63,553 nt of DNA from Nitrospirota bacterium (GTDB lineage: Bacteria; Nitrospirota; Thermodesulfovibrionia; Thermodesulfovibrionales; UBA6898), in contig JAJXTV010000021.1 in NCBI GenBank assembly GCA_021783515.1, positions 1-63,553 on the forward strand, in the 5' to 3' direction. The position numbers were made by a program, and so were the translations under genes. Under the pieces are notes generated by a model. It made no database searches. It was not told the DNA's origin and saw only the letters and a list, made by a program, of their open reading frames with translations. Of this stretch, positions 8,939 to 38,455 are shown one piece after another (within the stretch, counting starts at the first letter, position 1; each line of letters opens with the position of its first letter).

Positions 8939-9676
8939 TCACGCCTCCTTTTTCACCTTCGCCTTCTTCATGCTCAGCCCGAGACCGTCGAACATGTAGA
9001 ATATCGCGTAGCCCCACCACATCGTGTAGGCGACATAAAACACGAGAAGTCCCGACATCATGCCTGCGTGGTCGACGACCTTCTCGCCTTCAATGGTGTA
9101 GAAGTTGTAGGCCGGCTCGAGCGCCTTTTTGAGCACGTCTGATACGATCTTGGACTCGGTGATCATCTTCTGCTTCTGGAGCTGCTTGTGTACCTTGGTC
9201 AGGGAGGTGTGCCACTGTCTGAGAGACTTTTTTTCGTCGTCCATTCCGTATTTTGACCTGATCGCGGCGCCGTCGTTCTTGAACATCGCATCGGCGTCCT
9301 GAAGGGCGGACGCGAGTACCTTCCCGAGGTCACCCTCGAGCTTCACCGAGGAGCCCGACACCGAGGCCGCCGCGCCGGCGGTAGTGAACACATTGGCAAT
9401 GCTCTGGGCCCTCTTTTGGGCTTCCCCCGGCTTGTCTTCTAGGTTGCCCGCTTTGATCGTGACCGAGAACGCCTTGCCGATGAACTGCTCGTTGCTCTTT
9501 GACACCTTCGGTATGAAGTAGGAAGAGCCCTTCGAAAGCCTGTTGAAACTGTCGTCGGCGAAGCGGAGACCGTTCTTGCCGCCGAAGACCGGGGAGAATA
9601 TAAGCAGCAGCACCGTAATGAAGGAGACGGCGAATACCGCCCCCATCCCGAATGTCTTTCTATTTCTTATCAGCAT
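8939..9676 (-). CDS. Membrane protein of the TauE/Usp operon, hypothetical
   Basis: A 245-residue protein with a transmembrane segment near each end (about residues 11-31 and 205-230). Between them lies an extracytoplasmic, largely helical domain (KRAQSIANVF, RSKYGMDDEKKSLRQW, KVHKQLQKQKM). The C-terminal segment ends in a lysine-rich tail (KKAKVKKEA), placing both ends in the cytoplasm. AGGAGG precedes the ATG, one base after the TauE stop, so the two genes are tightly coupled and the protein may be a TauE partner. I do not recognise the family. Confidence 0.75.
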   Translation of the reverse strand: MLIRNRKTFGMGAVFAVSFITVLLLIFSPVFGGKNGLRFADDSFNRLSKGSSYFIPKVSKSNEQFIGKAFSVTIKAGNLEDKPGEAQKRAQSIANVFTTAGAAASVSGSSVKLEGDLGKVLASALQDADAMFKNDGAAIRSKYGMDDEKKSLRQWHTSLTKVHKQLQKQKMITESKIVSDVLKKALEPAYNFYTIEGEKVVDHAGMMSGLLVFYVAYTMWWGYAIFYMFDGLGLSMKKAKVKKEA

Positions 9677-36131: not shown

Positions 36132-36270
36132 CGTATGTCCCTGCCCGCCTTTGCGTCTTTATTTCGCTGCCCCGCCCTCCGGGTATTGCAGCCCGCTTCG
36201 GAAGGGCGCATTCGGCAGCTATTGATTGTACCAGAGCCGGAATAAAGTTGCACGGCACCGCGGTCGAAAT

Positions 36271-36289
36271 CAGCGGTGAAGAGTAGCCC
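36271..36289 (+). repeat. 19-bp flanking direct repeat, left copy
   Basis: CAGCGGTGAAGAGTAGCCC, identical to 38349-38367. The two copies bracket the AT-rich cassette array. The sequence resembles what I recall of end repeats in some IS21-family elements, but this is unverified. Confidence 0.7.
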
Positions 36290-36595
36290 CGCAAGAAAAA
36301 GGAAAGCGAGGCGGCTTAAAGGAGTTCCCCTAAATCGCCGAATTCAAGGAAGAACAAAAACCACCTCCCGTTGTATAAATATTGTGCGAAAAGAATTTTC
36401 GCCTTCCTTTATGGGGGCCGTTTTCGTCAAACCAGGGAACGAAATCGAATAATCGGGCGTCCGATGAGCAGTGAAGAAGCATCCCACAATACAATTCTGA
36501 ACGATTTTCGAAAAAGCCGAAAAAAAGACGAGAAGGCGTACAATAATTTCTTCTGCTTTTCAAGAGTTATCGCGCCATCGAAGGCGAGGGGTGGC

Positions 36596-36625
36596 GGGAT
36601 GTCGAAAATACTTTTTCGACATCCC
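36596..36625. other. Strong inverted repeat (hairpin)
   Basis: GGGATGTCGAAAA and TTTTCGACATCCC form a 13-bp perfect stem with a 4-base loop. No T-run follows, so it is not a standard terminator. It could be a remnant of an element end or an RNA structure. Confidence 0.6.
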
Positions 36626-36703
36626 GGAACTGAAGTGCAACGGACTGTCTCTATTGAGTAATTGCTATATGTGCAAAGTCACGTTTCCGAAATAATGCTT
36701 TCT

Positions 36704-36739
36704 ATTTCCCAGAATATTCATTCTGTGCTATTCCGTTTC
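36704..36739 (-). repeat. Cassette-punctuating repeat, copy 1
   Basis: On the minus strand it reads GAAACGGAATAG, CA, then GAATGAATATTCTGGGAAAT-type sequence; the inner CAGAAT-GAAT-ATTCTG is a small inverted repeat. It supplies the last codons and the TAG stop of the gene at 36728-37195. Four near-identical copies occur at 36704, 37244, 37636 and 38139. Confidence 0.9.
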
Positions 36740-37195
36740 TGAGACATCCATTATCTTGTCGCTTATTATCAGTATCTCGAATCTCAAACCGATGTTGAAT
36801 ATTTTTACAATCTTTTCCCGGTTGTTTTTTTCCAGTCCATCGAAGTGGATAAAAACCTTTTCTTTGGGAAAAATCAAAATCCGCAAATACTCATCGATTT
36901 CAACCTCTGTTGATTCCTCGAGTGAAGCGATAAAATCCTTTTCCGAAACCGGAAGAGAGGCGAATGCGTTCTTTTTTTGAAAAACAATCTTTTCCTCTCC
37001 TTTTTTAGTTTTTAATCGCAACAAAACATTCCGTTCTGATTTTTTTACCTCGATTATTTCAGAGTACAAACGACCGCATCGCAGCTGTTCCAGGCTTGAG
37101 AAAAGAAAGCAAACCGGATCTTTTTGGCTTAACATATCATAGGCCGATTCGGCCAAGTCCGCATTTTCTTCAATTATCTTGAGTATTTTCTCCAT
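36728..37195 (-). CDS. Cassette gene 1, hypothetical protein
   Basis: A 155-residue protein starting MEKILKIIEENADLAESAYD. The ATG at 37195 has GAGGAG upstream; a longer frame begins inside repeat copy 2 (MNILGN) and is rejected. Charged, with a probable alpha/beta character (RNVLLRLKTKKGEEKIVFQK, EYLRILIFPKEKVFIHFDGL). The final residues SETE and the stop are encoded by repeat copy 1, so the repeat is part of the gene. I do not recognise the family. The AT-rich, lysine-rich composition differs sharply from the chromosomal neighbours and points to transfer. Confidence 0.7.
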   Translation of the reverse strand: MEKILKIIEENADLAESAYDMLSQKDPVCFLFSSLEQLRCGRLYSEIIEVKKSERNVLLRLKTKKGEEKIVFQKKNAFASLPVSEKDFIASLEESTEVEIDEYLRILIFPKEKVFIHFDGLEKNNREKIVKIFNIGLRFEILIISDKIMDVSETE

Positions 37196-37243
37196 ATATT
37201 CTCCTCGGAAGGTAAATTTAAAAGAACCGTAAGCTATCAAAGC

Positions 37244-37279
37244 ATTTCCCAGAATATTCATTCTGTGCTATTCAGTTTC
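37244..37279 (-). repeat. Cassette-punctuating repeat, copy 2
   Basis: Same 36-bp unit with one change (GAAACTGAATAG instead of GAAACGGAATAG on the minus strand). It follows the terminator of cassette gene 2 by a single base. Confidence 0.9.
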
Positions 37280-37280
37280 A

Positions 37281-37307
37281 AAAAAAGACTGGTTATCCAG
37301 TCTTTTT
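37281..37307 (-). terminator. Rho-independent terminator of cassette gene 2
   Basis: AAAAAGACTGG-TTAT-CCAGTCTTTTT: an 11-bp stem with A and T flanks, so it can act in both directions. It sits between the gene stop at 37312 and repeat copy 2. Confidence 0.85.
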
Positions 37308-37311
37308 AACT

Positions 37312-37620
37312 TTACGAAATCAAAGCTTCGATCCTGCTGATCGTCCTGTAGATATCTGGCCATTTTTCTTTAGTGAAATAATTTGCCACGTGCAGAACTT
37401 CAGCAAGCTTATTTTCAATCAAAATCGGATTTATTGTTTGCTTGTCTAATTGTTTTTTAAAATATACGATCCAGATTTCGATGTTCGTTAGATAAAGATC
37501 TTTGAGTTTTTTGCTACCTTCTAATTTTTCTACAAAATCTTTTGCATTTATTGGTTTATTATTATTGTCCAAAATTATATCGAATTTTTGGATAGACAAT
37601 AGTCTTTGAGCCTTATCCAT
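37312..37620 (-). CDS. Cassette gene 2, hypothetical protein
   Basis: A 102-residue protein starting MDKAQRLLSIQKFDIILDNN. The ATG at 37620 has AAAGGAGGG upstream; the longer frame starting MNILGN lies in repeat copy 3. Mostly helical and charged (KDFVEKLEGSKKLKDLYL, YRTISRIEALIS), with no signal peptide, membrane segment or recognisable motif. It is AT-rich. The unit repeat-gene-terminator-repeat suggests a mobile cassette. Function unknown. Confidence 0.7.
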   Translation of the reverse strand: MDKAQRLLSIQKFDIILDNNNKPINAKDFVEKLEGSKKLKDLYLTNIEIWIVYFKKQLDKQTINPILIENKLAEVLHVANYFTKEKWPDIYRTISRIEALIS

Positions 37621-37635
37621 AAGCCCTCCTTTAGA

Positions 37636-37671
37636 ATTTCCCAGAATATTCATTCTGTGCTATTCCGTTTC
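37636..37671 (-). repeat. Cassette-punctuating repeat, copy 3
   Basis: Same 36-bp unit as copy 1. It follows the terminator of cassette gene 3 by three bases and precedes the ribosome binding site of cassette gene 2. Confidence 0.9.
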
Positions 37672-37674
37672 ATG

Positions 37675-37700
37675 AAAAAGGCTTCCTATGGAAGCCTTTT
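37675..37700 (-). terminator. Rho-independent terminator of cassette gene 3
   Basis: AAAAGGCTTCC-TAT-GGAAGCCTTTT: an 11-bp stem and 3-base loop with A/T flanks. It overlaps the stop codon at 37699-37701 and abuts repeat copy 3. Confidence 0.85.
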
Positions 37701-38004
37701 ATAGAATCTCTTCAAGCTTTGGTGTTTCGAAATCGTCAGCACAGAGGATGCAACGATCGACGACAAAATATTTTCCGGAAAATGATTTAGGCATGAGTTC
37801 GCCTATTTTTCTCATCAATTTTTTCGCAAGATTATCATTTATCTCAGCGACATTGCAGCAGCCCGCACAGAAACATCTGGCTACCGCCTCTTCCCATTCA
37901 AAAGGTGCTTTTAAATCTTCAGGCATAGGCAAAGGGCATTTGCCCTTTATAGGCAGCTTCTTCACCTCGCCGAACATTTGTTTTTTTATATCTTTGATAT
38001 TCAT
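37699..38004 (-). CDS. Cassette gene 3, cysteine-rich hypothetical protein
   Basis: A 101-residue protein starting MNIKDIKKQMFGEVKKLPIK, with AAGGAGG upstream of the ATG. Cysteines come in clusters (KGKCPLP, RCFCAGCCNV, RCILCADD), suggesting a metal or redox site such as a zinc knuckle, but no known motif fits exactly. Soluble, no signal peptide. It is the right-most gene of the repeat-bounded array, with repeat copy 4 about 135 bases upstream, leaving room for its own promoter. I do not recognise the family. Confidence 0.7.
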   Translation of the reverse strand: MNIKDIKKQMFGEVKKLPIKGKCPLPMPEDLKAPFEWEEAVARCFCAGCCNVAEINDNLAKKLMRKIGELMPKSFSGKYFVVDRCILCADDFETPKLEEIL

Positions 38005-38138
38005 ATGCCTCCTTGTTTAATTCTGCGTTCTAGCTATCTGACGTAGAATCGCCTCAGAAAAATCTTGTAGAACTGTTTGGTATTGGTTCGGATCTACGTT
38101 CTTGTCGACGCCGTCTGAGGGGGCGGTCAAGATTATGT

Positions 38139-38173
38139 ATTTCCCAGAATATTCATTCTGTGCTATTCCGTTC
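38139..38173 (-). repeat. Cassette-punctuating repeat, copy 4
   Basis: The outer copy, diverging in the last bases (GTTCC in place of GTTTC on the plus strand), as expected at an array boundary. Confidence 0.9.
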
Positions 38174-38348
38174 CCATATATGCCATCGTACATGCTTGGA
38201 GCATGAAGAAAGATCGCCCCGGTGCACCTTGTGAGAGCAAGGGAAGAAGTTGCCGAATATATTGATAAGTGGCGGTGTATCGCACTTCTCAGTGCCTTTC
38301 ATATCCGATACATTATTTATAAAATAAACAATGCTGTCAATCTAATAA

Positions 38349-38367
38349 CAGCGGTGAAGAGTAGCCC
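38349..38367 (+). repeat. 19-bp flanking direct repeat, right copy
   Basis: CAGCGGTGAAGAGTAGCCC, identical and in the same orientation to 36271-36289. Confidence 0.7.
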
Positions 38368-38455
38368 TTAAAACAGAAAGGCTTGATAAAATCGTTAAAT
38401 TACGCCGGGCTGTACCTGCAATCTAATTCGCTCTTCAGAGCTGGGTCGAAATTCA

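Follow-up and report, generated by a model that had tools for sequence, protein, structure and literature searches.

Several systems move small genes between short recombination sites. In the dif (pdif) modules of Acinetobacter plasmids and chromosomes (PMC13141974, PMC12907356, PMC6449649), small modules, often carrying toxin-antitoxin or unknown genes, are bounded by 28-bp Xer-type sites made of two 11-bp arms and a 6-bp spacer; neighboring sites alternate in orientation (C/D and D/C modules), arrays ("module islands") are formed, and the host XerC and XerD recombinases act on the sites, which are other than the main chromosomal dif. Integrons are the standard example of gene-cassette capture: single, mostly unknown genes lie between direct, folded single-stranded attC sites, with a divergent tyrosine recombinase and a primary site at one end, and arrays without a recombinase (CALIN) also exist. 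In turn, single-protein Xer systems such as XerH and XerA resolve chromosome dimers at one site.

We examined a locus that resembles each of these systems in part. It lies in a stretch of 63,553 nucleotides of a Nitrospirota chromosome (contig JAJXTV010000021.1, assembly GCA_021783515.1), hereafter the window. A preliminary description of the sequence had pointed out four near-identical 36-bp repeats, each said to follow a small minus-strand gene or its terminator, and had proposed modular capture of AT-rich unknown genes by an unidentified recombinase, distinct from integrons and with sites far shorter than attC.

Four direct dif-like repeats bound three small genes

The observation held when it was re-examined. 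Four copies of ATTTCCCAGAATATTCATTCTGTGCTATTCCGTTTC are found in one orientation, spaced 540, 392 and 503 bp. The inner 26 bp are identical in all four, while none is expected by chance (0 in 100 shuffles). A pattern search of the whole 3.16-Mb assembly with the 34-bp pattern and up to three mismatches returned these four copies only, and a dispersed REP-type element is therefore ruled out. The inverted motif CAGAAT-GAAT-ATTCTG is present on the minus strand, and the first repeat does supply the stop codon of a gene (TAG, 36728-36730). One minor correction is needed: the fourth copy closes the array and is followed on its right by DNA without a clear gene. The features of the locus are as follows:

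36262-36270: left copy of a 9-bp target-site duplication, GGTCGAAAT
36271-36283, plus strand: left terminal inverted repeat CAGCGGTGAAGAG of a transposon-like islet (an identical 19-bp copy lies at 38349-38367)
36340-36703: accessory region homologous to the DNA between recombinase gene and site in three relatives; the recombinase gene itself is missing
36600-36621: palindrome TGTCGAAAA-TACT-TTTTCGACA, 82-83 bp from site 1
36704-36739, plus strand: dif-like site 1 (28-bp core 36704-36731 plus extension), which supplies the stop codon of gene 1
36728-37195, minus strand: cassette gene 1, 155 aa, no known family, ribosome-binding site GGAG
37244-37279, plus strand: dif-like site 2
37280-37308, minus strand: terminator hairpin of gene 2 (predicted fold -14.5 kcal/mol, with T-run)
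37312-37620, minus strand: cassette gene 2, 102 aa, no known family, ribosome-binding site GGAGG
37636-37671, plus strand: dif-like site 3
37675-37699, minus strand: terminator hairpin of gene 3 (predicted fold -16.2 kcal/mol, with T-run)
37699-38004, minus strand: cassette gene 3, 101 aa, cysteine-rich, no known family, ribosome-binding site GGAGG
38139-38174, plus strand: dif-like site 4, distal end of the array
38312-38340, minus strand: promoter-like sequence TTGACA-17-AATAAT pointing into the array
38431-38443, minus strand: right terminal inverted repeat CAGCTCTGAAGAG
38444-38452: right copy of the target-site duplication, GGTCGAAAT

The 3' end of each gene faces the site on its left, and its start codon lies 48, 15 and 134 bp, respectively, from the next site on its right. 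The terminator hairpins of genes 2 and 3 lie between the gene and the site on its left. The GC content of the cassettes is 31-41%, compared with 57% for the window. A 58-codon minus-strand ORF (38017-38193) reads through site 4 in frame and ends just before the ribosome-binding site of gene 3; it may be the tail of a gene cut by the site or a small gene starting at it. The promoter-like sequence at the distal end of the array matches 11 of 12 consensus bases and a weak one overlaps site 2; however, the number of such sequences in the region is not above that in shuffles.

The weak match at site 2 would fit the possibility that the repeats are shared promoter or operator elements of a small regulon, duplicated with the genes; likewise, on the minus strand, each repeat closely precedes a gene, after a terminator. 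This explanation seems, however, very unlikely, as the gene sequences are unrelated, the site has dif-type symmetry and sits by a recombinase in relatives, and in three other genomes (G166, G039 and G026, see below) the site lies at gene 3' ends, in some cases with no gene of the same polarity directly downstream.

Read as 11-6-11, the core is ATTTCCCAGAA TATTCA TTCTGTGCTAT, with partly inverted arms (8 of 11) around a 6-bp spacer. This is the layout of Xer/dif sites, although such similarity is not proof of Xer binding. In one relative, G019, the site is ATTTCCTATAA TACGCA TTATGGGCAAT, close to Acinetobacter pdif sites such as ATTTCGTATAA CGTGTA TTATGTTAATT (PMC13141974). When a provisional B. 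subtilis dif sequence was used as reference, the four sites were four of the five best places in the window by arm identity; the comparison with E. coli dif, also provisional, was weaker, and the arms match dif only partly (14-16 of 22). About eight more bases on the right side are shared by the four copies and by the site of G166, and the right half is also the better kept one in G022 and G026. A search with a dif-derived pattern in ten genomes recovered the array-type sites where they exist and, in eight of the ten (the two others are the least complete), a quite different site of the form GATAA GATATA TTATGT.AA.T with small variants, which we take as the host's own dif. The array site differs much from it (11-13 of 22 arm bases), and the reading of the repeat as the host dif was rejected.

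Other identities were also discarded. No attC box, either R' (RYYYAAC) or R'' (GTTRRRY), was found on either strand within the array region or at any of the four sites. A CRISPR repeat was suggested by the length, the GTTTC end and the presence of an RT-Cas1 protein in relatives, but was rejected for the window because the units are genes of 392-540 bp.

Relatives with a linked recombinase and arrays with other genes

A search of 230 genomes of the class found one further copy of the core (2 of 26 mismatches), in the same-genus genome G166 (contig JAJZPM010000007.1, Nitrospirae bacterium isolate SKS1.bin124). A tyrosine recombinase gene of 293 codons starts about 370 bp from it and reads away from the site. 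The protein has a phage-integrase catalytic domain (PF00589, 3.8e-25), and its best NCBIfam matches are XerC, XerA and XerD, all far below their cut-offs (130 and 123 bits against 335 and 330 for XerC and XerD); as an integron integrase it scores only 65 bits (cut-off 265, TIGR02249). Its best solved-structure relatives are XerH and XerA. Within the class, orthologues exist in G019 (58%) and G039 (52%) only, two genomes of another family, with a fragment (56%) in G258 of the wider phylum sample. All catalytic residues of tyrosine recombinases (R-K-H-R-H-Y; R145, K169, H241, R244, H267 and Y276 of the G166 protein) appear conserved in the alignment of the three proteins. In a tree, the three recombinases form one clade apart from the host Xer proteins (100/98), though with long branches, and the enzyme does not qualify as an orthologue of housekeeping XerC or XerD. 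Searches for the 26-bp core or parts of it in collections of genome contigs and viral contigs, and for the recombinase in plasmids and viral contigs, gave no close relative; the phage hits are distant integrases of 26-29% identity.

G019 and G039 show the same order as G166: recombinase, region with palindromes, site, and in all three genomes the site lies about 370 bp from the recombinase. Alignment of the DNA between gene and site revealed that the window has the same region but not the gene. The palindrome TGTCGAAAA-N4-TTTTCGACA is present in five of the 230 genomes only: four at this kind of locus, where it lies about 83, 91, 90 and 91 bp from the site in the window's genome, G166, G039 and G019, respectively, and a relic in G134 (L137:5535-6400), where the palindromic region survives next to relE-like genes without a recombinase or a recognizable site.

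Arrays around other genes were detected with the consensus TTTCCYAKAAT-N4-ATTMTGKGCWAT. With two mismatches allowed, eight of 230 genomes were hit, while the reversed control gave one hit. G022 has two sites 544 bp apart around a 154-aa gene, followed by a DUF3303 gene and transposase remnants. G026 has sites at positions 9028, 10313 and 11415 of its locus (L097); the third was just below and the middle one, a weak site, well below the first threshold, and both were found by relaxed scans of the locus. Each lies 13-52 bp after the stop codon of a gene, and lipoprotein-like genes and a DUF2442/DUF4160 pair lie between them. In both genomes the sites are direct and the polarity of site and gene end is the same as in the window. 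Matches in G038 and G217 were judged to be chance, as they lie within or at the start of ordinary genes with no array.

These loci led us to consider whether the cassettes are moved by the host's own XerC/XerD, as in Acinetobacter, the recombinase next to the site in relatives being incidental. In support, the sites look like pdif sites, no recombinase lies beside the array in the window, host Xer proteins are present, and no dedicated recombinase was found in G022 or G026. However, the site that differs much from the host dif is shared with genomes that have the dedicated recombinase, site, palindrome and recombinase stay together in two families, and all sites point the same way, whereas dif modules alternate (PMC13141974). 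We consider this alternative unlikely.

In G166 (L010:6840-11731) and G039 (L051:4082-8978), which makes two of the three complete loci, a protein of 1,170-1,183 aa with RT and Cas1 domains (RVT_1 and Cas_Cas1, identified in the G166 copy) and an unassigned N-terminal part of about 400 aa, a 289-309-aa protein and a 130-177-aa protein, the latter two conserved but unknown, lie in the same order on the array side of the site. Of the 230 genomes, only these two have the N-terminal part of that RT-Cas1. No CRISPR-type array or Cas2 was recognized near the G166 copy, and predicted models of the N-terminal part and of the 309-aa neighbor were too poor for a fold search (AlphaFold, mean pLDDT 34 and 48). 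In G019, hicAB-like genes take the place of RT-Cas1, which may be either cargo or partner. Repeats of other kinds are also found nearby: in G166 (L010:4661-5360), two 47-nt direct repeats (81%) 653 bp apart bracket a hicAB-like gene pair just past the 3' end of the recombinase gene, and differ from the dif-like site; in G039 (L051:2805-3804), two 60-nt direct repeats (90%) 940 bp apart bracket an AbrB/PIN-type toxin-antitoxin pair near the RT-Cas1 gene, and no dif-like core was recognized in them.

The array lies in a transposon-like insertion

In the same-genus genomes G165, G166 and G167, argS and ilvE are adjacent. The window has 2,173 extra bases between them (36271-38443), flanked by two copies of GGTCGAAAT that occur nowhere else in the window and with imperfect inverted ends, CAGC..TGAAGAG (11 of 13 matches). 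This is the mark of a transposition-like event that carried array and accessory region but not (or no longer) the recombinase. No transposase was found in the islet, and it could not be assigned to a family. An exact 19-bp direct repeat, CAGCGGTGAAGAGTAGCCC, forms the left end of the islet (36271-36289) and recurs near its right end (38349-38367) but nowhere else in the genome; it may mark a nested or failed transposition.

The cassette genes have no convincing homologue in the other 229 genomes of the class (one marginal match, E 8e-4) nor in PLSDB plasmids, and their products gave no Pfam, PHROG or PADLOC family above chance. Neither of two outcomes that had been named beforehand as contrary to capture, the same genes and repeats fixed in order across relatives or a dispersed repeat, was found.

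A decayed integrative element (prophage, plasmid or island) with a dif-like attachment site might also be envisaged, the multiple sites reflecting repeated insertions at one att site. A tyrosine recombinase next to one site is what such an element shows, tandem insertions leave direct repeats, and the islet is small and decayed. However, the units, mostly one gene with its own ribosome-binding site and terminator, are too small for autonomous elements, the same unit structure recurs with other genes in G022 and G026, and no phage, plasmid or transposase families were found in the window's units. This explanation thus appears improbable.

A probable orphan cassette array and its comparison with known systems

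Our preferred interpretation, to which we give a probability of about 0.7, is that the locus is an orphan array of small gene cassettes bounded by directly repeated Xer/dif-type sites, belonging to a cassette system that in its fuller form (G166, G019, G039) has one site at a near-fixed distance from a palindrome-rich accessory region and a divergent gene for a dedicated Xer-like recombinase. In this view, recombinase protomers would bind the two 11-bp arms of double-stranded sites and exchange strands at the 6-bp spacer, so that two neighboring direct sites would release one cassette as a circle, and a circle could be inserted at another site with a matching spacer, perhaps preferentially the recombinase-proximal one. 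The identical spacers in the window (TATTCA, four times) would permit this. The accessory palindromes may give direction or regulate the recombinase; that they persist where the gene is absent (the window and G134) fits a role at the site, albeit weakly. What the sequences themselves show is the sites and their restriction to this locus, their conservation beside the recombinase, the arrays with other genes elsewhere, and the islet with its target duplication; in contrast, binding, strand exchange, excision, capture and expression are inferred. We cannot ignore that only three recombinase-bearing loci were detected, that no locus was seen with both recombinase and more than one site, and that neither excision nor variation within a population is in evidence. 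The interpretation made in the preliminary description is supported only in part: comparison now supports well a modular capture by a recombinase other than an integron integrase, but no recombinase lies beside the array in this genome and the site is not of an unknown type but dif-like.

A bolder possibility, which we regard as slightly less likely than not, is an integron analogue of separate origin: a chromosomal cassette-capture platform with its own Xer-like recombinase, a primary site with accessory palindromes, and double-stranded dif-type cassette sites. That such a platform might work with RT-Cas1, so that cassettes could arise from RNA, is a remote speculation. A second cassette system built on ordinary dif-like sites with a dedicated Xer-like enzyme would show that the cassette way of life arose more than once from Xer recombinases, and would give a testable intermediate between chromosome-dimer resolution, Acinetobacter dif modules and integrons. 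It would also offer a way to find arrays of unknown small genes that integron finders miss. A search of the open literature found no paper on such a system, which does not prove that none exists.

The locus is analogous to integrons and CALIN arrays in having single, mostly unknown genes between direct sites and, in relatives, a divergent tyrosine recombinase at one end. However, attC boxes are absent, the sites are of 28-36 bp, the relatives' enzyme is not IntI by the curated cut-off, and the genes read towards, not away from, the recombinase end. The locus fits the definition of neither integrons nor dif modules. Compared with single-protein Xer systems, one protein could likewise serve both arms, but here extra sites bound genes, besides a normal host dif. 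The closest known systems are the dif modules of Acinetobacter, with which the locus shares arrays of small modules, the 28-bp, 11-6-11 layout of the sites and the use of sites other than the main chromosomal dif, and from which it differs in that all sites are direct, so that single cassettes could leave, in that a dedicated recombinase with an accessory region is linked to the site in relatives, and in its occurrence in chromosomes of Nitrospirota.
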